From positions 1 through 55,474 of IMG/VR virus record IMGVR_UViG_3300037231_000117: a stretch of DNA of 55,474 bases, one strand, 5' to 3'. The position numbers and the translations under genes are program-made. This DNA comes from a virus. The notes beneath the pieces were generated by a model. That model was not told the origin of the DNA. It searched no databases and worked only from the letters and a program-made list of their open reading frames with translations. Below are positions 1,299 to 49,187 of the stretch, in pieces; positions within the stretch are counted from its first letter, which is position 1; each line of letters opens with the position of its first letter.

Positions 1299-1319
1299 TT
1301 TCGGGTCACTTTCGAGTCA

Positions 1320-1436: not shown

Positions 1437-1486
1437 CGTTCCACCTGCGCACTTTCCGATACGCGGCGGTGGCGCGGTTGCCACGC

Positions 1487-1807: not shown

Positions 1808-1810
1808 CGA

Positions 1811-2868: not shown

Positions 2869-2871
2869 CCC

Positions 2872-3255: not shown

Positions 3256-3257
3256 TC

Positions 3258-3458: not shown

Positions 3459-3478
3459 GCACTCCCTGGCAAGATGGT

Positions 3479-3499
3479 CCAGCGGCCAGCCACCGCTGG
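3479..3499. terminator. Hairpin between convergent genes
   Basis: CCAGCGG and CCGCTGG form a perfect 7-bp stem with a 7-base loop in the 57-bp gap between the ends of the plus gene (3458) and the minus gene (3516). There is no T-tract, so it would be a weak or factor-dependent terminator. Confidence 0.35.
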
Positions 3500-3515
3500 C
3501 GAAGGGTTGGCGGAT

Positions 3516-4022: not shown

Positions 4023-4058
4023 GTCTCTTTATCCTGGCTCGAATGAGCGTGATGCACT

Positions 4059-24203: not shown

Positions 24204-27200
24204 CTATTGTGGGCGCGTGCCGAAAACGTTCTCTGCGGCTTTGTTCCGCATGGCGTTGTATTTCATGATCTCAAGGCGCTTTTGTTCCGCGCCCAGGGTC
24301 GGGCTTTCACCGACGCGTTTGATCTGCCGGTTCGCCATCTGCTCGACTTCGGTCACTTTATCGACCAGTTCGTGCTTGGCGATCTGATCCTTGTTCGCCG
24401 CCGAGAATGCGCGGGCGTCGTCAACCCGTCCGCGTGCGATGAGGTCGAGATAGGTGGCGTAGGTCCGGCTGATCCCCTCGGCCTGCTGATAAAGCATGTC
24501 GATGTAGCGGCTCTGCGGGGTGGTTGATGTCGAAATCATGCCCCCCGTCGCTTGGTTCCACAGATCGGTGTTCGGCCGCACCGGCTCGACTGGCGCCACG
24601 CCGCGGAACGCCGCCTGTGCCTGATCGGCGCCGCGCACCGTCAGGTCGGCGAGATTGACGACGTGGGATCCCAACCAGCCGAAATAGCCGTTCACCAGGT
24701 AGTCGAGTTGGATCGGCGCCAGGAACTGTGCCTGCGGTCCACCGATTGCCCGCGCCGCCGCATTGCCCGCCGAACTGGCCGCCCGAGCGAACAGGGTCGT
24801 GGACGGCGTGTACCGTTCTTCCGAGCGCAGCCGGTCCATGCCTTTGCCGATAATCGGCGCGCCGGTACCGGACTCGTTTTCCAAAAGGTCCAGCACCGGG
24901 CGCACGATCTGCGGCACCGGGCTTAGCGACATATTGGTCCCGAGGATCTGCAGTACGGAGTTGGCGAACCGGCGCGGAGTCATCTCGTTGCGGCCAAAAA
25001 TGGCCTCGACCCCGTTGGCCGCGATCCGCGACATCGCCGCGATTTCAAAGCCCATCGGGATGCGGAACTGAGTGTTGCCGAACTTGAACCAGAAATTTGC
25101 GTCCCGGTCGTACTCCGTGCGCTTTTTGTAGTCTTCGTCGTTGGCGTAGATCGCGTCGAGAGCCAGCGTCAGCAGCGACGTAGCGCCGAGCACGATGGCA
25201 ACCCGCTTGGTGGCGGACGCTGCAACCCTGGCCCCGACCGCGACGGCGATGTTGCGATCCTGGTTCGCAGCCGCCCGCCCGACCTTGTACAGCCCCTGTG
25301 CCCATGCGTTCATAAACGGCACCGTCTGGGTAAGCACCCGCGCGATTGCGCCGGCACCCTTGAGGGTGAAGTCCTCCAGGTCGCGGGCGGCAAAAGCGGC
25401 TTGGTCGTGCGGGACACCATCGGCGATCAGCTTGTGATAGAGCGCGAACCGCTGGACATCCTCGCTCTGCGCACTGACTTCCTTGTATGCGCGGGCGATC
25501 TGGGAAACCCGATGCCAGAACGCGTTGATCGTGTCTGGCCGGTCCAGCATCGTGTCGAGATCGGTTCTCCGGCCGCCGGTGTCATGGCCCGATCCCAGCC
25601 GCATCGTGCCACCGCCGGCGATGGCGTCCGCCGCCTCGTTGCCCAGATTCAGCCTGTGTAGCTGCTGCCCGGCTATAGCCCGCGCCACGTTCTTCAACGC
25701 TCCGGGGAGGTCGCCCATGCCATAGCCGCTTATGACGTTTTTTGCGACGTTGTAGGACAGCGGCGCCGTGGCGATGGCCTGCTCGGCGTCGCGGATGCTG
25801 ACCCGCAGCATGAAGCGGGGATCAGCAGTGACGCCTTGCGTCAGGATGGTTTTGAACTTGGTCGCCGAATCCATGACGGGGTTGCGAAATCCGGAAAAAT
25901 CCAGTGCCGAGATCGCTGTGAACAGCAGCGGGTCGTGGACCTCGAAGAACTGCTTCTGGCCAGTGTTCATCACCCAAACGGTCGCTCGCTTTTCCGCCTT
26001 GGACTGGTAGGCGATGTCCCGCGCCGACAGCTCGCGCACGGCGCCGTTGGTGACGCCGGTGTCGAGGACGCCGGCGGATGCACGGTTGCGGAGCGACGCG
26101 TCGATCATGTGCGACCAGTTCTTGATCGCGTTGTCCCAGAGGTCGTTGTTCAGTCTTTCCGTGCCGCCCTTCAGCGTCTTGAACGCATTCTGCTTGACGA
26201 ACCCTGACGTCACGCTTGGGCCGGCGAAATGCCCGTCTGCCTCCGCGACGCGGTAGAACGGCACGTAGAACGGATTGGAGAACAGCGTACTGACCCGATC
26301 GCCATCGAGCAGGCCCGACTGCACGGCGAGATCGAGTACGTTCTTGTTGAACCCATCGAGCTTGCGGAGTGAATCGAGGTAGACCGCTTCGCGCGAGCGG
26401 GTAATCGAGCCATCCGGCAGGTGATAATCGAACGGCACCTGACCTTGGTTGGTCGCCTTGATCGTGTCGATATCGTCTTGCGACCATAGATTCTCCCGAT
26501 CTTCCGCGGTCAGCCGTTCGGCGCGGTTCGCCGCGACCCACCAGATGAAGCGATCTTGCTCGCCGTGTAGCGGCCGCACCAGGGAGTGCTCGACGCCGCC
26601 GTTACGCTCGTCCATCGCGTACGTGCTGCCATTGAACCGCAGCGTGCCATCGGTCAGGAACATCTCGGTCGCGCCGGCGGTCGTGTTGGCGTTGCGCAGC
26701 GCCATGTAGCCGGCCGGGTCGTCGGCCTTGACGCCGATATAGGGGTCAAGCCACGCGCGCACCGTGCGCCGGCCGAGGTCGTTGGTCGCGGCGGCGAGGC
26801 GTTCGCGCCAGGTCGGCGTGACGACCACGCGGCCGACGTTGCGATAGGCTGCGACCTGGTCTGGCGTCCAACGCTCGGTTTCCCGCTCGTCGCGGACGGC
26901 GACTTGCTGGCGTGGGGAGAACAGCGGCAGGCCCTGCGTCTGCACCGCTTCGCGGAGCTGGGGCGTGATGTCGAAGGAGTGGACGGATTGCCGGGTCTCC
27001 GGTTTGGCGTTCTCGGTAGACTCCCACCCGCTCGCATTTTGGACGGCTGGATTGGTGATCTCGCTCTGCCCGACTTTGGCGCCGAACTTGCTGACCAGCT
27101 TCTGGACCTCGGACGGCAGTTGCTTGTCGTAGAAGCCGCGCATGCCTTCGCCGCCGACTTTGAGATCAAGGCCCGTTAGCTCGCCAGTCGCATCGCCCTT

Positions 27201-30200
27201 GTAGCGAGTATAAATGTTCTCGCCGTTCTCAATCTTCTGGGCGATTTCCTTTCCGACTAGATCGGCCACTCGCCCAATCGAAATTCCATCTTCGTTGATG
27301 AGAGAGTTGCGGCCCTTCGACGCCACGATGTTGTACTTGCCGTCGTCTCGTTTTGTGTAGCCGATCCGATCAATCTGCTTGGACAGGTCATACCGATCGG
27401 CCTGTGCATCGCCGGGTGTCCACGCTACGCGATCGAAGCCATGATCCACCGCGTATTGCGTCATCCGCTTCATCGCGAGCATCGGCCATGTCGTTTTGAA
27501 CGGCGCGTCTGGGACGCCACTCGGAGTGTCGTAGCCCTGCCGACGTCCAGCCTGGTGCCAGTCTGATTGGATCTCCTCGATATGCAGCACCTTGGCGCCG
27601 TCCGGTGCGGTGCGCTCGGCAAAGCGCGTGTGCGCCACGACGTTCGGTTCGTCCCAGTGGGATGAACGGTAGGCCGTTTGCTCTCCGGTCATTACGGTCC
27701 GACCGTCAGCAATTCGCAGAGCCTCTTGATGGATGCGATCTGCTTCCGCTGTATTTCCATCCTCCATAGCATCATGCTCAGCGGCCTGTAGTGCTTGAAG
27801 ACGCGCCCCGATTCGTTCGTCGGCTGTCGCCGGAAGCGTCATCAGCATCTCGCGGTAGTTCTGACCGCCCGGCAGCGTGTATTGGCCGAACTTAGTCTTG
27901 GTATATTCCGACAAATACGGGTTCGGTTGGCGCGAAAGCTCGTTTAAGAGCCGGCCCATTTCGTCATCTTCGACCGGCGTCAGTCCGCGCCTTTCTCCCC
28001 CAAACCTTCGCGCACTTTCGTCGCGGTCATTAAGCTCCTGAAACCGATCCCGCTTGGCAGCGACGTCCGGCGCCTCGATCGGAGCGCCCCTTACGACGTC
28101 GCGCATGTCGAGCCGGTTGGCGCGTAGATAGTCCAGCACTTCGCCCTTGGTGACAGATTTCGGCTGCTTGCCGAGCCAGTCATCAAGCCCGGTCCACGCG
28201 CGTTCCTCGGGCTTCACGCCGGCCATGTTCCTGATCGTGGCGAGCCACTGGCCCGGTGTGGCCTTCTCCTGTTTGATGCCCTCTACCGCCCGCGTCAGCG
28301 CAGAGAACAGCGGCGTGCTGCCTTCCTCGCGGTCTTCCTGGCGGCGCGGCGAAAACTGCACACCGCCCTCCAGCGACGTGACCGGCCGCGTCTTGATGAT
28401 AGCCTCGATCGCGGTGGCGGCGGCCGTCGGCTCGGTCGGAACGAAAAACCGGGTCCGGCTGGCGATCCGCTCGCTGAATACCCCCGACCGCGCCAACTCA
28501 TCGCCGTAGCGGTAATCCGGACCCACCAGTTCGATGCGCGGTTCGCCAGCGACCAGAGAGCGCTTGATGGTCCAATCGTTCGCCAGCCGCGCGGTTGCGC
28601 CATTCAGCACCTGCGTCGCGATCTCGCCCGGCGACCCCGTCACCTTGACACCCTCGGCGCCGAGGCTTTTGAGCGTGGCATCGACACGCGAGGCCGGCAC
28701 GACGCGGCCCAACATCCGCTCGCCCTGGTCGGTCTGGAGCCGGAAAATCTTCGGGTTGCCGCCAAGCCGGTCCCAGATCGGCAGCACGGCGCCGGTGATG
28801 ATGTGCAAGCTGCTGTTGCGGAATTCGGGCGTCGCCGCGACCTGGTTGTCCCATAGCGGCTTGGCGTCTGCCGGCGTCAACCGTCTCCAGTTGTCGCGAT
28901 CGACCTTTTCGCGGTCCAGAAACTGATAGTCGGTCGGCGAGGTCAGCCGCGCCTGGGGGATGATCCGCCCATCCGCGTCGGTGTAATTGCCGGCCGAGGT
29001 CACCGCGAACACGCGCCCGCTTTGGACGTTCTGGATGAAGGTGTCCGGCTTCATGCCGTTGGTCTTGTTGCGCCCGGCCAACGTCTCGGCGAACCCGACC
29101 GGCTCATTCCGGTTCTGTGCGTTCAGGTGGACATGCTTGGTCTCGGCGCCCGAGCGCGGGTCGGTATAGACCGTCTGCTCGCTCAGTTTGGTGATCTTGT
29201 CCGCCTTGTAAGTCTCGACGCCGGTATCCAGCGTGCCGGCGGCGGACGCGCGGGCAATCGCCAGGTCCATGCGGTCACTGAACGCCTGGAAAACCCCGTT
29301 CTGATGATCGACCTTCAGCGACAGCACGCGGTTGAGGAACTGCGACATTTCCGGCAGCGGGGAAACGAGCGCGCCGTTATCATCGCGCATCTTCAAGCCC
29401 ATGCTCTTTTCGAGATCGTCTATCGAGACGCCCTCGACCTGGCCCATGGTCACGTCCTTGAAGAACTGGATCAGTCCGTCCCTGGCCTCGGTGCTTTCGA
29501 GGTTGTCCCGCATCCCGAACATGCCCTGGTCGGCCGCCCGGCGCTCGCCCTTGGTCAGCGCGCCCAACTGCGCCAGGCGCCGCGCGATCGAGGATATGAA
29601 CCGCTTCTGGCCTTGGAGGTCGGTGGTCACAAGATGGAAGATCGGCGCCGACGCCTGGTTGGTACGGTGCGTGCGGCCGAAGCCCTGGACTGCCTTGTCG
29701 GCCCGCCAGCCGCCTTGCACGAGGTAGTGCGACCGGCGCGCATCCTGACTGCCCGAACCGTTCTCTGCGTGGTAGCTGCGCCCGGTGCCGCCAGCCTCGG
29801 AGAACACCAGTATCGGCTTCTTGCCTGCCTGGAAGCTGCTGGCATCGGCGACGTTGGCGCCCGCGCCGCGCTGCTCGACCATCGTCTTGAGCTGCCCGCT
29901 TTCGTCCACCTGACGAACGACCCGCTGCTTGCGTCCTGTCACCTCGGCGACTTTGTCGGAACCAAAGTGATTGAGCAGCATTTCCAACGGACCATCGGGC
30001 ACGCGCAGGCTGCCGATCTGGTCAAGCAGGCGTTCCCGTCCCGCGACGGCCGCTTTGTTGATCACCGCCTCTCCGTTGCTGTCTGTCGCCGGACGCGACC
30101 GGAGGTTGCCGTTGTCATCGACATATTCCTCCATCTGCTGCACGGGATAGGCTTTCTCGACCAACTGCATGAGCTGGTCGCGCGGCGTCATATCGAGGTC

Positions 30201-33200
30201 CTCGATGTCCCCGTCGCCTGACGCCCGCGCCTTCTCCAACGCGCGCTCTTGCGCCGCCTCCATGGTGTTGACCAACTGCAACACTGCCTGGCGCCCGGCC
30301 TTCAGGTCTGCCTCAACCCCACGGATGACCGACGGCATCTGCATCGAGGTGATGATCTGGTTGAAAAACCGCTGATGGCCGCCCCAAAAGGCGGACATGA
30401 CGGCGGCTTTCGCCCGTGGGTTTTTCGTCTTGCCGTCCTCGGTTATGCCGGTTGCTTCGAGCGCCGCGTTGAAGTTCCGAAGCACCAACTGCCAGCCTTC
30501 GGCCAGCTTGTCGTATGTGTCCCGCTGATCAGCACTGAGGACGTGTTCGACCCGATCGTAATCCACGCCGTCATAGGACAGGTTGCGGGCGATGTAGTGC
30601 CCGAGCGCCTTCATGTCGCGGGCGACGAGTTCCATCCCGGCGATGCCGCCGCTGGACACCTGGCCGATGAAGTCATCCCGGTTCGCAAAGGCAGTCCCTT
30701 CGCCCCACAGGCCCAATCGGGTCATATACGCGAGGTTGGAAACTTCGGTGGCCCCCGTCGCCGACACATAGACCACGCGGGCATTCGGCAATTCGTCCTG
30801 AAGCCGCATGCCTGCTAAGGCTTTTTGCGCCGCTTTCTTCACGCCGCGAGTGCCCTTCGTATCAACGGAATTACCCATGTTGTGGGCCTCATCGAAGGCG
30901 ATCACGCCGTCGAAGTCTTTGCCCACCCATTTGATGATCTGATCGACGCGCGTTTGTCCGGCCGCACCCGGGGTAAGCGAGCCGCGCCTGGTCGGGTCGC
31001 CGTTCTCTTTCCAAAGGTGGGCGTCGCCGATGGTTTCGGTTGTGCCGTCTGCCTTCTCAATTGCCCAGGCGGGGTACTTCTCTTTTGTTGGACCGCTTTG
31101 GATCGTCCCGGTGTCGGTCTTTGTCGGGTCGTTAGCGTCAGTGTGCCATGTGACGCGGGAGCCAACCTTGAAACCACCGGTGGGCGCGGTCTTTTCCTCC
31201 GACTTCAGCGTGTCGTAACTGGTGAACAGGATGCCCTTGTCAGCCTTGATCGTGTCGCCCGGCTTGAGCTTGCCGTGGTCGATGATGTCCGTCGCCGGTT
31301 GCCCCATGCCGTTCCAATCCCGTCGGGCATCGTTGACCAGCGCCCGTTTCTCGGACACCCAGACGGCTTTGGTGCGGCCGTTCTTGAAGTTGTCGAGGAC
31401 TGTGCCGGCGATCTCGCGGCCCTTGCCGACGCCGGTACCGTCGCCGATTAGAAACCCGCGCCGCCGGCCATCGGCCATAACGTCGCTGTGCGCGTGCCCG
31501 GCATAGACGATCGCCTCAAGCTGGGCATCCGACAGCGCGCCGGACTTGACCAGCGCGATCGGGATGCGCGGCTTGTAGCCGGTGACCGGCGGCATGACCG
31601 TCGCCATGGCGGCGGACTGCACCAGTTCGCCCGGGTGCGGCCTCGCGCCGGCGATCTGCACGCGCTGGGGTTTGTAGGCCTCATAGACGGCTTCGCTGAC
31701 GGCTTGGTTGTCCGGTGCGGAAATGGCGTTCTCTGTCGCCAGGACCGCCTCGGGCGCCGGCGTCAGTCCGGGATCGTCTCGCTCTCCGCTACCATCAGGT
31801 CGTACGCCGTCTCCACCGCTATCGTTGCGGCCTCCGCCGGCGTCGCCGCCCGGTCCTCCAGTTGCGACGTGAGGCTCTCCTCCTGCTCGTCCCTGTCCAG
31901 GTTCGGATTGGACAGGAACCACTCCGTAGCCCGCATCGCCTGGTTCGGTCCCGACCCCAGCAGGGCGTTCACCGCGGACTCCAGGTTCGCGCGTTCCGGC
32001 TGGCTCGCTGACACCGGCGGCGATATCTCCACCACCCCCTTCTCCAGCCCCCACGCCGCCAGTTGGGCGATGTAGCTCACTGCCGGGTCCGGCGACGCCT
32101 TCGCCTCCCGCAGCCACTTCAGGGCCGCCTGGTTGATCGGCCACTGGTTCGACGGTGCTTCGCTCATCCCTTACACCCTGGAGTCGATCGATAACGTCGG
32201 CCGCATCGTGCGCCTGGCCGGTAACCAACGGCCTGCCGCTCGGCGGGTTCTTGTCAATTACCAACAATCGCGTCGGAAAGCTTGTGCCATATTTCGTGTA
32301 GATGTCGCGATCGACGCCGATGTTGGCGCGAACGTCGTATTCGGCGCCGATCTTTGCCCACCAGTCGCGAAAAGCCTTACCGGTTCCCTGCCGGCCGGTA
32401 CCTACGGCCGGGGTGCCTTCTGGCTTCATGCCGTCGCCGACGATCGCCACCAGCCGGCCGCCTGGCTCTAGCCGGGCCAAAGCCGCCTCGATGTGCTTGG
32501 CGCCCTCATCGAGCACCATGCGGCCACCCATGCGTTCGGCGGCGCGGCTGAATGGCGGGTTCATCACCACCACGGTCGGCCGCACGTCCGCCGGCAGGAT
32601 GTTGTGCAGTTGGGCCGCGTCCTCGCCAGCGACGCGCGTGGGGTGCAGTGCGGCGATCATGCCGCGGCGCTTGTCGCTCAATTCGTTGACCGTCGTCTCG
32701 CGCACGCCGGCGTTCATGGCATGGACGATCAGGCCGCCGACACCGGCGGACGGTTCCAGCACGTGATCGTCCGGCCGCAGGTTGGCGACCCAATTTGCCG
32801 CGAAGGCGTAATCGGGCGGCGTCGAGAACTGCTGGTAAGCGTCCTTTTCGCCGGCGCGGACGGTCTGCGTCGGCAGATTGTCCTTCAGCGCGGCCAGCTC
32901 GCGGGCGGCGGCTTCGGCCTGCGGAGCGTCAACCGCCGGATTGAAGCGTTCCGGATGGCGCTGGATGAAGCGGTTTACGCCGAGTTCAAGCGCGTCATAG
33001 AGCCGATCGCGGGTGAAGGCGCCGGACGCCAGCGTGCCGCCATAGGTGTTTTCCGCCAGCGCTTGGAGTTCCCGCGACGACAGCGGCGAAACGCCCTCCG
33101 CCACAGGCTGCTCCAGGCGGGACGCGATACCTTCGGCCAGAGCGTGGTCGCGATCCGCCGTGCGGGCGTCCGGCGCTTCCGGGATCGGCGCGGGGTTCGA

Positions 33201-36200
33201 CGGCGGTGCTGGTACCAGCGAGTCCGAAGCGGGGGCACCGGCCTCTACCGGTAGCCTGTACTCGGGTTCGCGCCCCTCGAACGTCGGATGCCACTCTGCG
33301 ACCTGGTATTCGGGGCGGTTGGTGCGATCGACCGTGATCTCTCGCGAGCCTGGCCGAATGCCGACCGGCTCGGTGGCGCGCACGCCGTTCTCGACGTAGG
33401 ACCGCACCCCACGCTGATCTTCATAAAGCGTCTGACCGATGTGGTTCTTGCCGATCTCGGTCCGGCCGTCCGGTGCGACGACGGGCGTCGCGTTCGTTCC
33501 AGCCTGGCGCAGCGCCGTGCGGGTGTCGCGCGCCATCTTCTCCCACGTCCAGCCGGCCGCGCGCGGATCGACGCCGGCCTTCGCGACCAGCGCCGCACGC
33601 TGATCGTTCGGCATGGCGTTCCACCATCCGGGCGAGTCCGGCGGCACCGTGCCGGGCGGCTGGATGTGCGTTGTCTTGCCGGTTTCCAGGCTGGTGAGGA
33701 TCAGGCCCGGATGCTCGGTCGGCGGTCTGCCCAGGTTTACAACCTGGTCAGCCTTCGTGGACTCAACCTGAGTCTGATCCGACAGCGCCTCGGCCGTCGC
33801 ACCGAGTTCGTTCCGCACCTTCGCCATCTCCGGCGTGTCGGCCGCCGGGTGCGTGACCGCGTCGAGTTTTTGACGCACGTCATCGAGCCGCGCCTTCGTG
33901 GGCGCCGGCAGCTTCGTTTCGTCGCCCGCGACCGGCCGCACGATCGCCGCCTCGGTCTGCGTCAGCAGCTTGGCCTGCGGTGTGGCCGCAGCCTTTGCGT
34001 CACGCTCCGCCGCCAACTGATCGAGCCAGCGGCGCAATTTCAGCACGACCGCCCGCGTGGCATCTTGGGCTTCGGGCGATCCCGCCGTCGGTATGACCGG
34101 GTTTACAACCTGGTCTGCCACAACCCGATCCCGCTCCGCCCGGTCTCGCATCTGCCCCAGCGCGGCCTGTTCGCGCTCAACCGGCGTGCCGAACCGCGCG
34201 GCATACATCTGCGCCAGGGTGTCGTGGATTTCGCCGATGTTCGTCACCCAATTCTGCGACCTTGTCCCGGAATCGCCGAAGATTCCGCGCACCGTCTCCA
34301 TCGCCGATTTCAGGCCGTCGATCAGGTTGCCAAGCACATCGCCGGCGACGCTGTTGCCGAACCGCTGCTGGATGGCGTCCACCACGCGCGGCAGGAACGA
34401 TTGGAACTTCGGCGCCTCGCCGCCGATATCCGATCCCAGCTCGTTTATCAGGTGCGCCTGGACCGCGGCGGCGTGGGCGGTGTCGCCTTCAGGACCGGCG
34501 CCGAAGCCTGCGCGCGCCGGCGCGGTCGAGCCGAATGTTGCCTGCGCGTAACGCGTACCCGCAGGGGTGATGCCGGCCGCGATCTGCTGATTGAGCAACT
34601 GGCCAAGATCGGTGCCGTCGGGCAGCGTCGTGGTCTGGAGAACGTGGGTAAACTCGTGCCCGGCCACCTGCGCGACATTGCGGGCCGGGTCGCTGCTCAG
34701 AAAGATCGTGTTCGGCTGGCTCGGGTCCATCGCGCCGTCAAACGGGATCGCGCCGTCGTCCTTGTAGAACACGACATCGACGCCAGCCTGTCCGTAGTGA
34801 GCGCGCAGCGCGTCCGCGGTTTCGGTGGAAATAGCCGGCTCGGCGCCAGGTGCGGGCGGCTCCGCCGATGGGGTCCACACCTCGATCGGATGCGTGATCT
34901 CCGTACCCGAGGCATCGGTCGTGCGGAAATGGTAGCCGCCGTCCGGCGCCTGTTCCACGGTGCCGGCACCGGTGTTGTCGAACAGCTTGAGCAGTGCGGC
35001 CTGCTGCAAGTCGGCACTGTCGCCCGTTGCCAGGTTCCCGGCCTCGGCATTGACGTCGATCGGCGCCCCCTCCGCGGGAGCGGACACAGCCTGTCTCGCC
35101 GTGTCGATGGCGGTGTCAACGTCCGGCGCATTGAGCACGTCCGCGACGGCCGGACGCGGCTGCACGTTCGGACGCCCCGGCATGGCCCGCCCGGCCAGCC
35201 TGCCGGCGCCGCCCAACACGGCCGCCGCGCCAGGCAGCAACGCGCCGGCGACGAACTGTAGGCCGAGGTCTTTACCGACGCCCTCGCCGATGTCCTGGTC
35301 CGGTTTGTAGGTCGCCTTGGCGATGACGTTGTCGGCCACGGCCTGCAACTGGCTGAAGGCGGTGAGGGTGGCACCGGACTTCGCCATATCGGCGAGCGTG
35401 GTCAGGAACTGGCCCCGCGCGGCACCCGGAATGCTGGCTGCCAACTCGATCGCCTGGTGGATCGGGACGGTCATCAGGCCGCCATCGACTAAGCCGCGGA
35501 ACAGCCCTGCGGTCGCTGCGTCTTCGTCTGTCGCTCCGGCTTGCTTGGCCTCATCGTAGCCCGCGCCGTAGCCCTGGACCCCCGCGAGGCCGATGACCGC
35601 TGCCGGGCCGCCGGCGACGCCCGCGCCGATGTAAGTCAGCAGGCCGCCGGCGAGATTGACGGCTTTGACGGACAGCCGCTGTTTTTCCTCATCCGTCATC
35701 GGGAAGGCTGCATTGCCGTAGTCGGTGACGGCTTGACCGGCGCCGCTGACGGAGCCGCCGACGTTCTTGACGGCCTGTCCTGCCTGTCCGAGTCCGGTGT
35801 CTTGCGGCTGCACCGCAACCTCGCCCTCGATCCTGGCCCTGATCTTGGCCCGCGTGTCCGCGTCGGAAGCGGCATACGCTTGACCAAACTCGAAGTCGGC
35901 GGCGGCCGGACTGGCTACGCCACCGGCTGTTGGCGGCTGGATGTGTTGTCCGCCGTCGATGCGGTCCATCAGACCAAGCTGACCGCGCAGCACCGCATCG
36001 GAGTTCTGTGCGGCGGCCTGCAAGGCGGTGCCAGCGCCGGTCACCATCTCGCCACCGGCTTTGACCAGTCCGCCGGCGATATCGGTCGGTTGGAGCGCAA
36101 TCGCCTTGCCGATGCCCCCGAGGGTGGACGACGGCGGCGTCGTGTCAGGCGACGCTGGCTGGACGGCAAGATGATCGATGATCTCGTTGGGCAGGTAGCC

Positions 36201-36344
36201 GGCCTTCAGCGCGGCGTCGGTGTTGAAGTTCGCCAGGCCGCCGACATAGCTCGCGATCTCGCCGTCCGAGTAGCCGGCTGAACGCGCGCCGGCGACATCG
36301 AACGGGATCGACCCGGCTGCTGCTGGTTCGCCGCCGTCAGGCAT
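24204..36344 (-). CDS. Giant polyvalent protein, 4046 aa: metallopeptidase, methyltransferase, Strawberry-notch-type helicase, LPD domains
   Basis: This is the largest gene. Two short UBA-like helices (AGYSDGEIASYV, AGYLPNEIIDHL) begin it, followed by a hydrophobic region (about 234-380). HEFTH (563-567) marks a zincin peptidase. HVLEPSAGVGG (about 1191) and NPPF (1262-1265) mark an adenine-type methyltransferase. Walker A GDGTGVGKG (1634-1642), DEAH (1818-1821) and GFGRTHRTNQ (about 2219) mark an SF2 helicase of the Strawberry-notch type. HIEEIQSDWHQ (about 2920) marks a frequent polyvalent-protein domain. A C-terminal LPD38-like part has a membrane helix (about 3714) and RIPMGFE (about 3760). 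Such proteins are packaged and ejected with DNA to block host defence, as for P1 DarB. This role is inferred. Confidence 0.85.
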   Translation of the reverse strand: MPDGGEPAAAGSIPFDVAGARSAGYSDGEIASYVGGLANFNTDAALKAGYLPNEIIDHLAVQPASPDTTPPSSTLGGIGKAIALQPTDIAGGLVKAGGEMVTGAGTALQAAAQNSDAVLRGQLGLMDRIDGGQHIQPPTAGGVASPAAADFEFGQAYAASDADTRAKIRARIEGEVAVQPQDTGLGQAGQAVKNVGGSVSGAGQAVTDYGNAAFPMTDEEKQRLSVKAVNLAGGLLTYIGAGVAGGPAAVIGLAGVQGYGAGYDEAKQAGATDEDAATAGLFRGLVDGGLMTVPIHQAIELAASIPGAARGQFLTTLADMAKSGATLTAFSQLQAVADNVIAKATYKPDQDIGEGVGKDLGLQFVAGALLPGAAAVLGGAGRLAGRAMPGRPNVQPRPAVADVLNAPDVDTAIDTARQAVSAPAEGAPIDVNAEAGNLATGDSADLQQAALLKLFDNTGAGTVEQAPDGGYHFRTTDASGTEITHPIEVWTPSAEPPAPGAEPAISTETADALRAHYGQAGVDVVFYKDDGAIPFDGAMDPSQPNTIFLSSDPARNVAQVAGHEFTHVLQTTTLPDGTDLGQLLNQQIAAGITPAGTRYAQATFGSTAPARAGFGAGPEGDTAHAAAVQAHLINELGSDIGGEAPKFQSFLPRVVDAIQQRFGNSVAGDVLGNLIDGLKSAMETVRGIFGDSGTRSQNWVTNIGEIHDTLAQMYAARFGTPVEREQAALGQMRDRAERDRVVADQVVNPVIPTAGSPEAQDATRAVVLKLRRWLDQLAAERDAKAAATPQAKLLTQTEAAIVRPVAGDETKLPAPTKARLDDVRQKLDAVTHPAADTPEMAKVRNELGATAEALSDQTQVESTKADQVVNLGRPPTEHPGLILTSLETGKTTHIQPPGTVPPDSPGWWNAMPNDQRAALVAKAGVDPRAAGWTWEKMARDTRTALRQAGTNATPVVAPDGRTEIGKNHIGQTLYEDQRGVRSYVENGVRATEPVGIRPGSREITVDRTNRPEYQVAEWHPTFEGREPEYRLPVEAGAPASDSLVPAPPSNPAPIPEAPDARTADRDHALAEGIASRLEQPVAEGVSPLSSRELQALAENTYGGTLASGAFTRDRLYDALELGVNRFIQRHPERFNPAVDAPQAEAAARELAALKDNLPTQTVRAGEKDAYQQFSTPPDYAFAANWVANLRPDDHVLEPSAGVGGLIVHAMNAGVRETTVNELSDKRRGMIAALHPTRVAGEDAAQLHNILPADVRPTVVVMNPPFSRAAERMGGRMVLDEGAKHIEAALARLEPGGRLVAIVGDGMKPEGTPAVGTGRQGTGKAFRDWWAKIGAEYDVRANIGVDRDIYTKYGTSFPTRLLVIDKNPPSGRPLVTGQAHDAADVIDRLQGVRDERSTVEPVADQPGGPEVAAGGEGVAGPGSELHRPTGGVGAGEGGGGDIAAGVSEPAGTREPGVRGERPAGVGTEPGDAGYGVVPVQSEPGQGRAGGEPHVATGGPGGDAGGGRNDSGGDGVRPDGSGERDDPGLTPAPEAVLATENAISAPDNQAVSEAVYEAYKPQRVQIAGARPHPGELVQSAAMATVMPPVTGYKPRIPIALVKSGALSDAQLEAIVYAGHAHSDVMADGRRRGFLIGDGTGVGKGREIAGTVLDNFKNGRTKAVWVSEKRALVNDARRDWNGMGQPATDIIDHGKLKPGDTIKADKGILFTSYDTLKSEEKTAPTGGFKVGSRVTWHTDANDPTKTDTGTIQSGPTKEKYPAWAIEKADGTTETIGDAHLWKENGDPTRRGSLTPGAAGQTRVDQIIKWVGKDFDGVIAFDEAHNMGNSVDTKGTRGVKKAAQKALAGMRLQDELPNARVVYVSATGATEVSNLAYMTRLGLWGEGTAFANRDDFIGQVSSGGIAGMELVARDMKALGHYIARNLSYDGVDYDRVEHVLSADQRDTYDKLAEGWQLVLRNFNAALEATGITEDGKTKNPRAKAAVMSAFWGGHQRFFNQIITSMQMPSVIRGVEADLKAGRQAVLQLVNTMEAAQERALEKARASGDGDIEDLDMTPRDQLMQLVEKAYPVQQMEEYVDDNGNLRSRPATDSNGEAVINKAAVAGRERLLDQIGSLRVPDGPLEMLLNHFGSDKVAEVTGRKQRVVRQVDESGQLKTMVEQRGAGANVADASSFQAGKKPILVFSEAGGTGRSYHAENGSGSQDARRSHYLVQGGWRADKAVQGFGRTHRTNQASAPIFHLVTTDLQGQKRFISSIARRLAQLGALTKGERRAADQGMFGMRDNLESTEARDGLIQFFKDVTMGQVEGVSIDDLEKSMGLKMRDDNGALVSPLPEMSQFLNRVLSLKVDHQNGVFQAFSDRMDLAIARASAAGTLDTGVETYKADKITKLSEQTVYTDPRSGAETKHVHLNAQNRNEPVGFAETLAGRNKTNGMKPDTFIQNVQSGRVFAVTSAGNYTDADGRIIPQARLTSPTDYQFLDREKVDRDNWRRLTPADAKPLWDNQVAATPEFRNSSLHIITGAVLPIWDRLGGNPKIFRLQTDQGERMLGRVVPASRVDATLKSLGAEGVKVTGSPGEIATQVLNGATARLANDWTIKRSLVAGEPRIELVGPDYRYGDELARSGVFSERIASRTRFFVPTEPTAAATAIEAIIKTRPVTSLEGGVQFSPRRQEDREEGSTPLFSALTRAVEGIKQEKATPGQWLATIRNMAGVKPEERAWTGLDDWLGKQPKSVTKGEVLDYLRANRLDMRDVVRGAPIEAPDVAAKRDRFQELNDRDESARRFGGERRGLTPVEDDEMGRLLNELSRQPNPYLSEYTKTKFGQYTLPGGQNYREMLMTLPATADERIGARLQALQAAEHDAMEDGNTAEADRIHQEALRIADGRTVMTGEQTAYRSSHWDEPNVVAHTRFAERTAPDGAKVLHIEEIQSDWHQAGRRQGYDTPSGVPDAPFKTTWPMLAMKRMTQYAVDHGFDRVAWTPGDAQADRYDLSKQIDRIGYTKRDDGKYNIVASKGRNSLINEDGISIGRVADLVGKEIAQKIENGENIYTRYKGDATGELTGLDLKVGGEGMRGFYDKQLPSEVQKLVSKFGAKVGQSEITNPAVQNASGWESTENAKPETRQSVHSFDITPQLREAVQTQGLPLFSPRQQVAVRDERETERWTPDQVAAYRNVGRVVVTPTWRERLAAATNDLGRRTVRAWLDPYIGVKADDPAGYMALRNANTTAGATEMFLTDGTLRFNGSTYAMDERNGGVEHSLVRPLHGEQDRFIWWVAANRAERLTAEDRENLWSQDDIDTIKATNQGQVPFDYHLPDGSITRSREAVYLDSLRKLDGFNKNVLDLAVQSGLLDGDRVSTLFSNPFYVPFYRVAEADGHFAGPSVTSGFVKQNAFKTLKGGTERLNNDLWDNAIKNWSHMIDASLRNRASAGVLDTGVTNGAVRELSARDIAYQSKAEKRATVWVMNTGQKQFFEVHDPLLFTAISALDFSGFRNPVMDSATKFKTILTQGVTADPRFMLRVSIRDAEQAIATAPLSYNVAKNVISGYGMGDLPGALKNVARAIAGQQLHRLNLGNEAADAIAGGGTMRLGSGHDTGGRRTDLDTMLDRPDTINAFWHRVSQIARAYKEVSAQSEDVQRFALYHKLIADGVPHDQAAFAARDLEDFTLKGAGAIARVLTQTVPFMNAWAQGLYKVGRAAANQDRNIAVAVGARVAASATKRVAIVLGATSLLTLALDAIYANDEDYKKRTEYDRDANFWFKFGNTQFRIPMGFEIAAMSRIAANGVEAIFGRNEMTPRRFANSVLQILGTNMSLSPVPQIVRPVLDLLENESGTGAPIIGKGMDRLRSEERYTPSTTLFARAASSAGNAAARAIGGPQAQFLAPIQLDYLVNGYFGWLGSHVVNLADLTVRGADQAQAAFRGVAPVEPVRPNTDLWNQATGGMISTSTTPQSRYIDMLYQQAEGISRTYATYLDLIARGRVDDARAFSAANKDQIAKHELVDKVTEVEQMANRQIKRVGESPTLGAEQKRLEIMKYNAMRNKAAENVFGTRPQ
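33731..33747. repeat. Palindrome CCAGGTTTACAACCTGG inside the giant gene
   Basis: The 7-bp arms (CCAGGTT/AACCTGG) are perfect with a TAC centre. It is one of three related sites (see 34089-34121 and 55219-55251), all read in frame as D-Q-V-V-N. Confidence 0.65.
34089..34121. repeat. 33-bp element shared with 55219-55251
   Basis: This element matches 55219-55251 in 31 of 33 bases, including GTATGACCGGGTTTACAAC. In both genes it codes for V-A-D-Q-V-V-N-P-V-I-P. The copies lie in different, unrelated genes. It could be a conserved DNA site or a shared peptide. Confidence 0.8.
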
Positions 36345-37306
36345 TACGGCGCTCCTCCGTTGTTCAGAAAGCCGGGCAGTGCTGCTGCCGGTGCTGGAGC
36401 AACCGCGCGTGGGCCGGCGTTCGAATTAAATGGCGGCGCTGCCTGCGTGGCGGGGCCGAAGCTGGCCAGCGGCGGCCGGGTGCCTGTCGCCGGCGAACCT
36501 GGCGCTTCATTGCCGGTCGCGGCGGCGACGCGGCCATGCACCAGGTCGCTTGAGTACTGCAACGCACGCTGCGCCCCGGTAAGCTGGATCTTCAGGTTCG
36601 CGACCAAGCCCTTTTGCGCGACCTTGTCGGTATCGCTTATTTCGGGGCTGTTGAGGGCCGCCGTCGCGGTGACGAGTTGCGTGTTGTAGTGCTGCACACT
36701 GTCCATGTCGGTTCGGTACATCGCCGCTGCGGCCTGGGTGATCGCTGCCTCGGTCCCGGCGGATACTTCCAGCGACGTGACCTGGTTCTTCAACTCGGTG
36801 ACCTTGGCCGGATCGGCGTCGGGCTTTGCGATCTCGGCCTGTAGCGCAGTGTGCGCCTGATCGAGTTGCTGGGCATTGTTGGTCTGTACCGCAGCCAGCG
36901 CCGTCTGCTGGTTCTGCGCGTTAATCTGCGCCTGCCGTACCGGCGCCGCCGCCGCGAGTTCGGCATAGGTGTTCTTGCTTTGCAGGTCCGCGGCGTATTT
37001 CGACGCGGCCGCCGAAATCCCAGCAGCGCCCAGCGTCGCGCCGGCGCCGATCGTGGCGATCGTCTGTGCCGACTGCCGTTGCAGATCGCCTTGTCCGGCG
37101 AGGAACCCGTGTTCCGCCGTCGCGGCCGTCGCGGCGATATCGCCCGCTTCCTGTCGCCCTTTCGACTCCCGCACCGTCGCCAGTTGGTCGGCCAGGACAG
37201 CCCCCTGCTGCGCGAGATCGGCCTTCTGCTGCTCCAACCCGGCCGATCCGGCAAACGCCGCCACGCCCGAGCCGAGGCTCGACAGGCCGTTCATCAGCGA
37301 TGCCAT
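36344..37306 (-). CDS. Probable internal virion (ejection) protein, 320 aa
   Basis: This starts MASLMNGLSSLGSGVAAFAG and is coupled to the giant gene by a TAATG overlap. The body is Ala/Gln-rich and helical (RQAQINAQNQQTALAAVQTN), with long coiled-coil-like segments, ending in a Pro/Ala tail. Such Ala/Gln-rich helical proteins placed before giant genes in podoviruses are typical ejection proteins that leave the capsid before the DNA. No enzymatic motif is seen. Confidence 0.6.
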   Translation of the reverse strand: MASLMNGLSSLGSGVAAFAGSAGLEQQKADLAQQGAVLADQLATVRESKGRQEAGDIAATAATAEHGFLAGQGDLQRQSAQTIATIGAGATLGAAGISAAASKYAADLQSKNTYAELAAAAPVRQAQINAQNQQTALAAVQTNNAQQLDQAHTALQAEIAKPDADPAKVTELKNQVTSLEVSAGTEAAITQAAAAMYRTDMDSVQHYNTQLVTATAALNSPEISDTDKVAQKGLVANLKIQLTGAQRALQYSSDLVHGRVAAATGNEAPGSPATGTRPPLASFGPATQAAPPFNSNAGPRAVAPAPAAALPGFLNNGGAP

Positions 37307-37878
37307 CAGCTATCATCCCCGGCCACTGGTCGGTTGATCATGCCACCAGGACTGGGAGGCATCGGCGTGGGCTTCGCGGCCATCGGGTGTTGCGTGATTC
37401 CGGCCTTCATGTTGATTTTCGCCATCGCAACAGGATCCTGCGTGATCGCGTGGATCCGCGTCGCGGCGTTCGCCAGCCCCGCTTTGGTGATGCCGAACCG
37501 GGCAAACAGAAAATCGGTGAAGATGTGGGTGGCGCGCACCAGTTCCGGTTCGCCGATCGCGACAATCTTTGACCGGTCCACGAAATCGAGGGCTTTCAGC
37601 ATGAGCGTCATAGCGGCTGGCACCATGGCCTTCAGCGGCATGATTCCGTGCGCCTGGCGGCGGAGGATCAGCACCAGGGCAACCGCGCCCTTGGCGGCGT
37701 CAGCGACCGGGTCCTGGCTCTGCCGGAGCTTGGCCAACAGACTGTCGGGTCCGTTCTGCAACCCGACGTGCATGCCTGCTACCACGATTTTGAGGTAGTT
37801 GGCGCGATTCTGCGGCGTGAGTCCGCTTTCGAGCTTGTCCTCGGCCTGCTGGAGCAGCGGATTGTTGAGTTCGGCCAT
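37306..37878 (-). CDS. Hypothetical internal virion or head protein, 190 aa
   Basis: This starts MAELNNPLLQQAEDKLESGL, overlapping the preceding stop (TAATG). It is helical, with a hydrophobic central part (GAVALVLILRRQAHGIMPLK, MVPAAMTLMLKALDFVDRSK). Its C-terminus (MAAKPTPMPPSPGGMINRPV) is Pro-rich. Its position between ejection-like proteins suggests an internal virion role. No family was recognised. Confidence 0.55.
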   Translation of the reverse strand: MAELNNPLLQQAEDKLESGLTPQNRANYLKIVVAGMHVGLQNGPDSLLAKLRQSQDPVADAAKGAVALVLILRRQAHGIMPLKAMVPAAMTLMLKALDFVDRSKIVAIGEPELVRATHIFTDFLFARFGITKAGLANAATRIHAITQDPVAMAKINMKAGITQHPMAAKPTPMPPSPGGMINRPVAGDDS

Positions 37879-39074
37879 TATGCCGGCGCTCCCGTTACCT
37901 GTGCCGCAGCCGGCGCCTGATTGATGAGTCCAGCCGGTTGCTGGGTGGGTGCCGCGGGTACCAGCGTCTGCGGAGCGCCCGTAACCGGCGCGCTGGAGGC
38001 GACCGCTTTTGGCTGAGCAAGGTTGGCCGTCTGCTGTGTTTGCAGCGCCGCCGCCGCATTGTTCGCTGCGGCCTGTGCGTTGAGCGCGGAAACCTGGGCC
38101 GGGGTAAGTGTGCTCGTCAGACCGGAAAGCAGCGATCCTCCGGCTTGCAGTGCGCCGTACGTGAGCAGTGGGTTTGCTTTAAGGAACGACCCGATGCTGC
38201 CGAAAACGCCCGAACTGGAACCGCTGTCGGGGAGACTGATGAGTTTGCCCGTGGTCGGGTCAATAGCTTGAGTGATCGTGTTGCCATCTGCACCGGTCGC
38301 TCCAAGACCACCCGGCGGCGCGGGTGGGGTGTCGATCACGCCATCCCCGCCTACGCCCGGTGCTGCTACGCCGCCTGGCCCCAGCGCGCCCGGCGGCAGT
38401 CCGGGAATCGGGTTTGCCGCCGCGGTAGTGGGTGCAACGACCGGACTTTCGCCAACGACCAGGCCGGTCGAGTTTGTGCCGCCCGCGGCTGCCTGCGCCG
38501 TACTGTCTTCCACCGTCGCCGCATCCTGGCTCGGCAATTCTGTTCCAGTCGGGACCGGAGCGGCGGCGTTGGTTGCGGTGGACGCTTGGGTCACACCCGC
38601 ATCGCCGCCGACCGAAGCCGCTTCTGCACCGGAAGTCGGCGCGGTAATGACCTCGCCCGTTCCTGGGTCGATAGCGCCTACGCCACCCGGAGGGGCTGGT
38701 GGCGTGTCGATCATGCCCGACGAAGTCGCATCTCCGCCGACGAAGTTAACGGTGTCGGCCGCCGCCGAGTCAGCCGTTGAAGCTGTCGGTGCGGCACCGA
38801 ACAGAGGCGCGCTGGACGCCGCATCGGCCCCAAGCAAGCCCGCGCCAACGGCGAGAGAGCCAATCCCACCTATAGCGCCGATCACCAGCCCCACCATTGA
38901 AAGTGTCTTGTTGCCGGTGATCGCTCCAATCGCGCCAAGGGTCGCACCCACGGCCGTCACAATCTCAAGCGCCGTGACCGTGCTGATCGCCGCGATTCCA
39001 CCGACGGTGGCCGCGACTGCCGAGGCAGCGATAGCGTCCGCACCGATCGCAACGCCGACTGCGATTAAGGGCAT
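37878..39074 (-). CDS. Hydrophobic Ala/Gly-rich internal virion protein, 398 aa
   Basis: This starts MPLIAVGVAIGADAIAASAV, with a GGAGGG ribosome site. Residues 5-80 are a long hydrophobic, Gly/Ala-rich stretch with possible membrane hairpins (GNKTLSMVGLVIGAIGGIGS). The rest is Pro/Thr/Gly-rich and contains two IDTPPAPPGG segments with similar flanks, so part of it is duplicated. The C-terminus has an Ala/Gln-rich helix (LNAQAAANNAAAALQTQQTA). It fits an ejection protein that inserts into the membrane; this is inferred from composition and position. Confidence 0.55.
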   Translation of the reverse strand: MPLIAVGVAIGADAIAASAVAATVGGIAAISTVTALEIVTAVGATLGAIGAITGNKTLSMVGLVIGAIGGIGSLAVGAGLLGADAASSAPLFGAAPTASTADSAAADTVNFVGGDATSSGMIDTPPAPPGGVGAIDPGTGEVITAPTSGAEAASVGGDAGVTQASTATNAAAPVPTGTELPSQDAATVEDSTAQAAAGGTNSTGLVVGESPVVAPTTAAANPIPGLPPGALGPGGVAAPGVGGDGVIDTPPAPPGGLGATGADGNTITQAIDPTTGKLISLPDSGSSSGVFGSIGSFLKANPLLTYGALQAGGSLLSGLTSTLTPAQVSALNAQAAANNAAAALQTQQTANLAQPKAVASSAPVTGAPQTLVPAAPTQQPAGLINQAPAAAQVTGAPA

Positions 39075-39439
39075 TTCTTGTCCCTCCGGTAATGCACAAA
39101 GAACTCGCTCGTTCCGGTCACTTGAAACCCCAAGAGTTTGTTGAGCCTGTGCTGGCGACCGGCGCCCTCGACTGGCGTCCGCGTCGTCACGAAGCCATGC
39201 CGCTCGATGATGGCATCAAGCCGAGAGTTGATCATGGTCCTGGTAATCGGCGCCCCGGTATCAAAACTGGCGAAATGAAACTCCGGCCCGTTCGTCAGTG
39301 TAGCGAAAGCCAATTGGCCGTCGATCACCACCGGTTCGATATCCCAGCACGCCAGGCCGGAAACGAACTGCTCGCGGGTTAGAAAAGCGAACGGCTCGAT
39401 CTGTTCCCACAGAGCGTCGATGACATCGACGCTCGTCAC
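39065..39439 (-). CDS. Possible GNAT-fold small virion protein, 124 aa
   Basis: This starts (GTG) with TSVDVIDALWEQIEPFAFLT and overlaps both neighbours. The core AFATLTNGPEFHFASFDTGA, followed by INSRLDAIIERHGFVTTRTP and GRQHRLNKLLGFQVTG, has the strand-helix order of GNAT acetyltransferases ('R-x-x-x-L-L-G-F'). Small GNAT-like proteins are encoded in the same position in T7-like phages (gp13), where they are core proteins. The catalytic state is unknown. The call is tentative. Confidence 0.5.
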   Translation of the reverse strand: MTSVDVIDALWEQIEPFAFLTREQFVSGLACWDIEPVVIDGQLAFATLTNGPEFHFASFDTGAPITRTMINSRLDAIIERHGFVTTRTPVEGAGRQHRLNKLLGFQVTGTSEFFVHYRRDKKCP

Positions 39440-40902
39440 CCGCCGGGGCCGACGTCTGCCACCGACAACGCGGCCTGTTCAAACGCCGTGAGAGGCCCCG
39501 TTGGCGTAGGCGTGTCCGTGGCAGCGCCCGTGGTAGAAGCGTCCGCGGTCGGATCAGTAAACACGAGGGTCGAGTTGGCCTGCTGGTTCGCCGCGATGTC
39601 ATTCAGCGCATTAAGGCCGTCCTTGAGCTGCGACACCCCGTCGTTCAACGCCGTCGTCTGCTGCGCCGTGCTCAGGTTCGGGTTCGTCATGATCGCGGAC
39701 AGATTCGTCAGCGCCTGGTTGTAAAGCTGGGCCGCCGATGCCGACGTTTGCAGCAACGTCTTGTTCTGGTCGCCCAAGTTCTGGATTTGCGTGTTGATGA
39801 CGCCGTTCGCCTGAATGTTGGCGAGCGAGGCGGCATTTTGCAGGTTCTGCACCACGATGGTGTTCTGGTTGTTCGCCGCCGCGATGATCTGCGCCGACGC
39901 GGTCTGCTGCTGTTCCACGCTCAGGCTGGTGTTCGCCGAAATGTTGGCGATGGCCTGGGCGCTGGTGTTGTTGACGGCCGCGAGTGCCGCCGAGGCGTCC
40001 ACCGATATCTGCTGCGCCGTGAGCGTGGTGTTGGCGCCCAACTGGCCAAGATAGGTCTGCAGCCCGGTCTGCTGGGCTTGGATCGCCAGCGTGGTCGCGT
40101 CCTGCTGTTGCTGGTTGCTCAGGCTGGTGTTCGACTGGATGCCAGCGATGACCGTCGATACCGCCGCCGACTGCTGCTCGACGGACAGCGACGTGTCCGC
40201 CTGGATGTTGGCGATGGCTTGCGCGGACGTGTTGTTGACATCGGCGATATTCGTCGAGCTGGCGATCGACTGCGCGGCCTGCGTCGCGGTGTTGGTCGCC
40301 GCGGCGTTCACCTGGCTTGTTGTCGTGGCGAGCTGCGCGTTTTGCAGCCCGGCCGTGTTCGTCGCCGCCGCCGTGGCCGCCAGAGCGGCGTTCTGCGCCT
40401 CCGTGGTGTTCGTCGCGGCTGCCGCGTAGGTGTTCGCATCGGCCGTGGCGATCGGCGTCGCGGCGGTGTAGAGCGCGGCCTGAGCGGCGGTAATGCCCTG
40501 GCTCGAATTGATGAGCCCCCGCTGGTTCGACAGCTCGTTGGCGTTGGCGACCGCCTGCTGCATGAGCGGCGAGCCGGACGCGATGATGTTGGATATCTGA
40601 CCGGAAACGGTTTGATTCGGCGTGACGGCGAACGAATTCGGAGTGGAACTCGCGGCCGGGGCAGCGTTCGTCGATGTTGCGGTGGCGGGTGTGTACGGCG
40701 CGACGGTCGTGCTGCCGACCGTTTGCGGCGCCGGCGGGGCAGCGGTGGACGGTGCGGTGTTGATCAGGCCCGTGGGTAGAAGTCCGGGAGTCGGCGTGGC
40801 GCCGGGTGCGGCCCCACTCGCGCTCGGTAAACCCGGGCCAGCGACGACAGGCGGGACGGTGGGCGCGTTGACGCCTGGCGTGAGGGATGCTGAGCCGGAC
40901 AT
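39436..40902 (-). CDS. Ala/Asn/Gln-rich repetitive virion protein, 488 aa
   Basis: This starts MSGSASLTPGVNAPTVPPVV at ATG 40902, with GGAGA upstream and a TGATG overlap. Residues 1-95 are Pro/Thr/Ala-rich. From about 130 to 440 it is a long helical repeat region with a variable motif like NNTSAQAIANIQADTSLSVE (repeated later as NNTSAQAIANISANTSLSVE). It is very rich in Asn, Gln, Thr and Ala, suggesting an extended coiled coil. It probably is a structural protein, perhaps an internal core or a fibre stalk. No enzyme motif is seen. Confidence 0.6.
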   Translation of the reverse strand: MSGSASLTPGVNAPTVPPVVAGPGLPSASGAAPGATPTPGLLPTGLINTAPSTAAPPAPQTVGSTTVAPYTPATATSTNAAPAASSTPNSFAVTPNQTVSGQISNIIASGSPLMQQAVANANELSNQRGLINSSQGITAAQAALYTAATPIATADANTYAAAATNTTEAQNAALAATAAATNTAGLQNAQLATTTSQVNAAATNTATQAAQSIASSTNIADVNNTSAQAIANIQADTSLSVEQQSAAVSTVIAGIQSNTSLSNQQQQDATTLAIQAQQTGLQTYLGQLGANTTLTAQQISVDASAALAAVNNTSAQAIANISANTSLSVEQQQTASAQIIAAANNQNTIVVQNLQNAASLANIQANGVINTQIQNLGDQNKTLLQTSASAAQLYNQALTNLSAIMTNPNLSTAQQTTALNDGVSQLKDGLNALNDIAANQQANSTLVFTDPTADASTTGAATDTPTPTGPLTAFEQAALSVADVGPGG

Positions 40903-48959: not shown

Positions 48960-49187
48960 TTAAAGTCCGTCGTCGCCTGCGCCGGTCACCGTCGGCCGGT
49001 CTGCCCCGAGGGCGATGAGACTCTTGAGGCATTTGATGCGACCGCGTAATGCTGCGGTCTGCTGTTCCGTGATCGTCTCGTCGTCATTCTTGCGCCGTGC
49101 CGCGGCCACCATTTCGACCAGGTGGGCTTCCAGCCGTACCCAGAGCGAAGACGACCTGTCGTGGGACGTGAGTTCGAAGTCGTCCAT
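48960..49187 (-). CDS. Small hypothetical protein, 75 aa
   Basis: ATG 49187 (MDDFELTSHDRSSSLWVRLE) overlaps the end of the portal gene (TGATG). It is helical and charged (VEMVAAARRKNDDETITEQQ). It sits between portal and scaffold genes. No family was recognised; a small scaffold or portal helper is possible from position. Confidence 0.6.
   Translation of the reverse strand: MDDFELTSHDRSSSLWVRLEAHLVEMVAAARRKNDDETITEQQTAALRGRIKCLKSLIALGADRPTVTGAGDDGL

Follow-up and report, generated by a model that had tools for sequence, protein, structure and literature searches.

The DNA analysed here, a 55,474-nucleotide IMG/VR virus contig (the window), encodes a 4,046-residue polyvalent protein that we read as a virion-carried delivery frame with exchangeable cargo, a reading to which we assign a probability of roughly 0.65. 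The frame would consist of the N-terminal ~890 residues and of a C-terminal ~890-residue module containing LPD38, and would load this giant protein into the head. The giant, which closes the ejection cassette and is its largest protein, would then be put through the envelope by its frame, in the slot taken by T7 gp16 and the N4 vRNAP. The cargo entering with the DNA would comprise an adenine methyltransferase, a Strawberry-notch-type DNA translocase and a GNAT-like acyltransferase. Methyltransferase and translocase would protect the entering genome from restriction by modifying or shielding it, while the GNAT-like domain would modify a host protein or nucleic acid and the zincin may cut the cargo loose.

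The gene is a complete minus-strand open reading frame (24204–36344) with an ATG start, the sequence GGAGGAG upstream of the start and zero internal stops. It occupies 12,141 of 55,474 bases (21.9%), in agreement with the original prediction of one gene covering about 22% of the genome. The motifs named in that prediction are all present: HEFTH at residue 563, HVLEPSAGVGG at 1194, NPPF at 1262, the Walker A sequence GDGTGVGKG at 1634, DEAH at 1818, GFGRTHRTNQ at 2221 (given as 2219), HIEEIQSDWHQ at 2921 (given as 2920) and RIPMGFE at 3761. A further motif, FSTP, lies at 1173. Of the membrane/RIPMGFE part proposed for the C-terminus the RIPMGFE motif stands, but the membrane portion is thin, with a single hydrophobic stretch at 3714–3735; other hydrophobic stretches of the protein are located at 235–253 and 359–378. 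The record carries an exact 127-base terminal repeat. A 15-base tandem array at the contig end (55252–55385) runs on at positions 1–38 inside this repeat, and a GC-rich array with a period of 126–135 bases (52628–53057) possibly codes for a repetitive protein on either strand.

On the minus strand the giant closes a virion operon whose genes are tightly packed. Read from right to left, the operon comprises the genes for the terminase large subunit (53472–54974), the portal (49187–51688), the major head protein (46838–47908), two tail genes (41567–44424), namely a 243-aa SU10-type adaptor (43693–44424) followed by an 859-aa ORF, then six genes encoding proteins of 320, 190, 398, 124, 494 and 221 aa (36344–41567), and finally the giant. 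The 859-aa ORF has a PHROG match labelled ‘amidase’, and its first ~124 residues probably precede the true start. The six genes directly upstream of the giant are candidates for internal or ejection proteins; relatives in conserved order precede the giant in two other loci (five of the six in L016, four of the six in L005). From 44424 to the giant each gene directly adjoins or overlaps the next, by one base at the last three junctions; the start codon of the giant overlaps the preceding stop by 1 base. The giant thus has the position beside virion (late) genes that is typical of polyvalent proteins. Other genes in the record encode an integrase (4904–5794), an antiterminator-like protein and an endolysin. 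Two 24-base repeat arrays (9369–9458 and 9548–9636), which look like mutual inverted copies, fall inside a 574-aa minus-strand ORF (8740–10464) with a weak DnaA_N match.

The integrase gene, together with the occurrence of proteins with the GNAT-like domain in bacterial assemblies, would also suit a giant that is made late, stays unpackaged and has its site of action in the producing or lysogenic cell, as a lysogeny gene or superinfection factor. We regard this as quite improbable, because the giant lies inside the virion operon with 1-base overlaps and because, in the phage group to which giants with the same C-terminal module belong, a protein of this type is described as a major virion component.

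The N-terminal part of the frame (residues 1–891, 33672–36344, minus strand) is conserved in identity to the L005 and L016 proteins. It includes a zincin-like region (residues 480–720, 34185–34907, minus strand) around the HEFTH motif; the motif is preserved in L005, and the surrounding region is conserved in both L005 and L016. The region yielded no Pfam or other profile match and no convincing match among PDB sequences. Because the HEFTH region matches no profile, we consider a zincin-like metallopeptidase likely rather than proven.

The first enzyme of the middle part is an N6-adenine-type DNA methyltransferase (residues 1154–1366, 32247–32885, minus strand), identified by matches to PHROG 9133, 6263 and 799 and by its FSTP, EPSAGVGG and NPPF motifs, which are all intact. 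It is followed by an SF2 helicase/translocase (residues 1626–2378, 29211–31469, minus strand) with matches to PF13872, PF13871 and PF04851. AAA_34 (E 2.5e-110) and Helicase_C_4, the SNO C-terminal domain (E 2.3e-81), occur together here, as is characteristic for the Strawberry-notch type. No strong PDB-sequence match was obtained with the methyltransferase and helicase segments, and a Pfam scan at E ≤5, with a library that may or may not hold LPD36, gave no match to this domain before the methyltransferase. An N6-adenine methyltransferase (TP motif, NPPF) followed by a SWI2/SNF2-like helicase corresponds to the dyad of P1 DarB, so that the DarB-like arrangement originally proposed was broadly right, but the helicase has to be corrected to the Strawberry-notch type. 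The DarB helicase belongs to another SWI2/SNF2 branch. The segment after the helicase (residues 2379–2640, 28425–29210, minus strand) is conserved in the same position in the giants of L045 and L081 (phmmer E 2.7e-42 and 5.3e-39).

With Pfam and PHROG matches and a 66%-identical relative, the domain assignments are not due to chance, as judged from sequence. Two or more disparate activities are thus combined on one polypeptide, and the earlier reading was supported: a polyvalent protein whose zincin-like motif, N6-adenine-type methyltransferase and SF2 helicase are encoded in a late/virion region. A further suggestion, that the regions 2300–2900 and 2950–3650 may hold uncharacterised effectors, has to be corrected: they contain no series of separate effectors, since residues 2379–2640 form the conserved region described above, 2640–3145 a single GNAT-like domain and 3152–4044 a single module.

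This C-terminal module (residues 3152–4044, 24213–26891, minus strand) was delimited by tblastn and profile searches. It contains the domain LPD38 (PF18857; residues 3736–3907, 24624–25139, minus strand), matched with E 5.9e-30 and 105.2 bits against a cut-off of 27, which assigns the giant to the phage-type polyvalent proteins; LPD38 is stated to be phage-only in the text of Iyer et al. (PMC5512222). PHROG 18222 covers residues 3159–4042 (E 4.9e-128). In a tblastn search with residues 3159–4046, 35 of 50,697 phage records matched, ten of them over at least 80% of the query, among them phages of Achromobacter, Aeromonas, Vibrio, Escherichia, Planktothrix and others. In IMG/VR 436 stretches matched, 410 were confirmed and 80 were kept. 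A profile built from 40 modules identified 107 ORFs carrying the module among the loci collected, and in 103 of these the match ends at most 30 residues from the ORF end. The giants BcepIL02 gp70 (E 9e-51, residues 3878–4663 of 4667) and Bacteroides phage BS-TP4 gp3 (5,391 aa) likewise end in this module, whereas three shuffled controls gave no match. The 2,684-aa InPase/LPD3/LPD38 polyvalent protein of Achromobacter phage CF418P1 (L006:8451-16505) is annotated as ‘putative portal’.

Three seemingly stand-alone module genes (L243, L244 and L249; 824 aa) were taken as truncated copies and not as solo genes, because L243 is 98% identical to the C-terminus of a 2,787-aa protein in L245; no large ORF lies directly upstream of L243 on the plus strand. 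The ‘internal virion protein’ gp33 of Pelagibacter phage HTVC028P, tried as a relative of the module, did not match. The profile of 40 modules retrieved only two irrelevant weak matches from the PDB sequences, T7 gp16 not being among them, and the structural model, large and helical, gave weak matches only and no known fold. Matches in BFVD are C-termini of other polyvalent proteins, some of them labelled RelA/SpoT, LT_GEWL or type I methylase.

The ends of the giant are constant and its middle is exchanged. The L005 homologue (2,312 residues) matches residues 1–842 with 51% identity (L005 residues 1–830), residues 716–891 with 44% and residues 3135–4042 with 66%, and has ~450 other residues where the window protein has a 2,240-aa middle. 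In L016 residues 1–799 are matched at 67–73%, where the contig stops. Conversely, a cargo block (residues 927–3193, 26766–33566, minus strand) is shared at 31–47% identity with the giants of L081 (matching 927–3193) and L045 (matching 1057–3148), which have no significant C-terminal module. The right-hand edge of the cargo is marked by the hexapeptide PLFSPR (residues 3140–3145, 26910–26927, minus strand), which is identical at the L005 junction. The replacement cargo of L005 was considered as a ParB protein and is kept as ParB-like only: it has a GHQR-type motif and matches the ParB-like PHROG 1033 (E 1.7e-4), lacks a Pfam match and was absent from the phmmer results with the ddrB-ParB of ARM81mr.

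The part upstream of the module comprises 925–3,792 residues in the window protein and 69 5′-complete ORFs with at least 400 upstream residues. Among 99 pairs with 50–70% module identity, the upstream parts align over less than 25% in 35, over 25–75% in 56 and over at least 75% in 8, measured as the fraction of the shorter of the two. Because module or domain served to collect the loci, sharing of the module is a given, but the mismatch of the remainder is not. For a Pfam scan 26 upstream parts were chosen and one (L220) was left out. The remaining 25 contain InPase (8), RadC (5), ddrB-ParB (4), ART (4), LPD3 (3), LPD37 (2), SNO helicase (2), LPD1 (2) and zeta toxin (1). Constant ends and an exchanged middle therefore lead us to the delivery frame with exchangeable cargo.

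The same pattern bears on two other explanations. If the giant were mainly a structural ejection protein whose ends form a conduit and whose enzymatic middle is incidental or partly inactive, the ends would be expected to be the conserved parts, as they are, and replacement of the middle in L005 would be tolerated; conduit roles are moreover described for T7 gp16 and the N4 vRNAP (PMC8954989, PMC12633501). Yet the methyltransferase and helicase motifs are intact, 39 columns are invariant among 36 sequences of the GNAT-like domain, and the cargo of other phages is again largely enzymatic, which together make this explanation improbable. That two phage genomes were wrongly joined in assembly to give a chimeric ORF is suggested by the different closest relatives of ends and middle, but is contradicted by the single open frame without a stop and by two proteins, those of L077 (4,683 aa) and BS-TP4 gp3, that independently join the methyltransferase-helicase part to the C-terminal module; we regard a chimera as highly improbable.

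The last part of the cargo is a GNAT-like domain of ~505 aa (residues 2640–3145, 26910–28427, minus strand) with the signature EEIQSDWHQxGRxxGY, which ends in PLFSPR. An IMG/VR query with these residues matched at least 599 stretches, of which at least 595 were confirmed and 80 kept. In bacterial and archaeal genome assemblies 330 stretches matched the patterns, 123 were confirmed and 80 kept, spread over many phyla and including archaeal bins. Among isolate phages, queried with residues 2381–3158, only 5 of 50,697 records matched; the domain is therefore represented much more strongly among uncultivated phages. An alignment of 36 sequences, one from the window and the others from viral loci (of the 80 loci, 46 had sufficient coverage and 35 were left once close copies had been removed), has 39 invariant columns, with 33–42% identity to the window sequence.

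No Pfam family covers this domain. Pfam acetyltransferase models hit none of the 36 members; such weak Pfam matches as occurred each fell to a family found in a single member, and none was to an acetyltransferase. Neither a search of PDB sequences (no convincing match) nor hhalign against two phage acetyltransferases (no profile match) revealed a relative. PHROG 7348, a profile of 2,564 positions labelled endolysin, was matched by 34 of the 36 members; this label probably stems from another part of the long profile and is probably a name wrongly transferred.

The AlphaFold2 model of the domain has a mean pLDDT of 83. Foldseek against the PDB gave no match at E ≤0.001 (best 2.1e-3), and the 50 matches listed are, judged by their titles, GNAT proteins or proteins with a GNAT domain, including an isocitrate lyase 2, which we take to be such a protein. 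With VIA-align (top 1000 chains) all 50 PDB entries listed are GNAT by title, with Z 8.0–10.3 over 117–147 residues; the best match has Z 10.3 and an rmsd of 3.3 over 135 residues. This list is not generic, because the C-terminal module model, searched likewise, gave no such list. On the predicted model residues 2640–3145 have the GNAT fold, and in our reading the elements are ordered as in GNAT proteins, with extra segments separating strand 2 from strand 3 and strand 5 from helix 4. The acetyl-CoA pyrophosphate loop of GNAT enzymes has the sequence (Q/R)xxGx(G/A) after strand 4. Directly after the EEIQSD strand the domain has invariant Q292, G294 and G298, whose spacing differs from that of the canonical loop.

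Acyl transfer by this domain is what the model suggests. If the domain had borrowed a GNAT-like fold for binding or for a structural role, without being an acyltransferase, this would agree with the large insertions, the lack of a Pfam acetyltransferase match, a Foldseek E of 2.1e-3 at best and the PHROG label. The uniformly GNAT entries listed by VIA-align and the invariant EEIQSDWHQxGRxxGY signature, which looks enzymatic, speak against it, and we consider it unlikely, though well worth keeping in mind. Acyltransferases carried by phages or other elements and acting in conflict have precedents, e.g. the anti-CRISPR protein AcrVA5.

The GNAT-like domain is not tied to giants, because 37 of the 80 viral loci have it in complete ORFs of less than 1,000 aa; 8 are of 1,000–2,000 aa, 20 of at least 2,000 aa and 15 are truncated. 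In phage HTVC028P it is found in gp34, flanked by gp35 and by gp33, which is annotated as an internal virion protein. Two copies occur in a 2,387-aa protein of Dolichospermum phage Dfl-JY45 (L013:9862-17025), where another protein holds a partial one. Small annotated acyltransferases also occur among internal or virion genes, as BcepIL02 gp65 (L261:22066-22503) and HTVC028P gp37 (L015:8483-8944), a split parallel to the fused domain; no sequence relation of these two to the GNAT-like domain was found. As the domain is widespread, has no Pfam family and bears an ‘endolysin’ label, a misleading name may conceal a common enzyme of early infection.

At the other end of the giant a tag of ~20 aa is duplicated (residues 15–59, 36168–36302, minus strand; FDVAGARSAGYSDGEIASYV / FNTDAALKAGYLPNEIIDHL). 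By internal repetition the window protein is a weak case, with 8% of its other windows scoring as high and a z of 2.3 versus shuffles. Many giants start with a short segment repeated two to three times within the first 120 residues, and the segment differs between phages, e.g. LRPLDFDPF in L024, GPWxKYA in L252, IDFSGIDxx in L253 and NLLDEFxLR in L203. Duplicated N-terminal segments were likewise seen in L104, L112 and L236. When windows of one protein are ranked by internal repetition, the first 120 residues fall within the top 5% in 14 of 35 N-terminal clusters (75 proteins; 1.75 clusters expected, binomial 5e-10) and above every other own window in 11, the repeats having been first spotted by eye and then counted on largely the same proteins. 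BcepIL02 gp70 shows no duplicated N-terminal tag (73%). An initial regular expression for a tag motif was hardly enriched (N-termini 10 of 66, inner windows 7 and 5) and was discarded. In 21 loci, a search for the tag elsewhere in the proteins of the same phage found it confined to the giant, apart from weak matches and one ORF in L205; this 126-aa ORF, which has NFFDQFD close to its C-terminal end, resembles a small secreted protein and was taken as a coincidence. Because P1 DarB is packaged through its N-terminus, the first 30 residues sufficing to bring a reporter into the capsid (PMC9024508), a role as loading signal is a reasonable guess, and the duplicated tags are candidate capsid-loading signals by this analogy.

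Beyond the window we tentatively propose, at less than even odds, that many phages use such an interchangeable frame: a phage-specific, often duplicated N-terminal tag would load the head, the ~890-residue C-terminal module would deliver any enzyme placed between, and the commonest cargoes would include an unrecognised, insertion-bearing GNAT-type acyltransferase acting on the host in the first minutes. With constant ends and a replaceable middle, a list of motifs becomes a testable design. If the frame loads and injects any insert, it would be a natural protein-delivery device and would explain how early-infection enzymes are traded among phages. A literature search that covered the text of PMC5512222 yielded no description of the GNAT-like domain or of the frame-and-cargo design; the GNAT-like domain and the duplicated N-terminal tags are new, testable parts of the giant.

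As a polyvalent protein the giant is of a known kind. Iyer et al. 2017 describe the arrangement of zincin, N6-adenine-type methyltransferase and SF2 helicase in a late/virion region, and report a Strawberry-notch ATPase ‘in a few instances’; the giant, too, has an SNO-type helicase beside polyvalent domains (PMC5512222). Two RimI-like GNAT families appear in the text of the same paper, and the ~505-aa insertion-bearing domain may or may not be one of them. P1 DarB, of ~251 kDa as against 4,046 aa here, is likewise a virion protein that unites a methyltransferase with an SF2 helicase, and it is believed to pass into the cell together with the DNA (PMC5512222, PMC9024508). From this likeness and from the identity of the domains we infer that methylation and translocation by the giant would act against restriction, its substrates and its proteolytic activity being presumed likewise.

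N4 vRNAP (gp50) and T7 gp16 are, like the giant, the largest proteins of an ejection operon. N4 vRNAP contains, besides its enzyme, an HExxH motif and a C-terminal part that is helical and of no known fold (PMC12633501), and T7 gp16 is contained in PDB 7EYB (PMC8954989). The enzyme differs in both and no sequence relation of the C-terminal module to PDB chains was found; because the module has no relevant PDB sequence or fold match, the comparison rests on gene order and published analogy. A Sinorhizobium podovirus, AP-20-A, was dismissed as a relative, as ‘polyvalent’ appears there just in a reference title. The closest parallels are offered by the DarB-like giants of Bcep22-like podoviruses, temperate phages in which, as here, a giant ends the virion module (BcepIL02 gp70, 4,667 aa; JC1 gp69, 4,515 aa). 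BcepIL02 gp70 shares the C-terminal module and the PHROG 9133 methyltransferase with the window giant, but its helicase matches PHROG 16, and it has neither the GNAT-like domain nor the duplicated tag. JC1 gp69, which takes up 22.1% of its genome, was detected with 51 unique peptides in CsCl-purified virions (PMC9144972), and this proteomic result, together with the operon position and the C-terminal module, suggests that the giant of the window would be packaged and injected as well.
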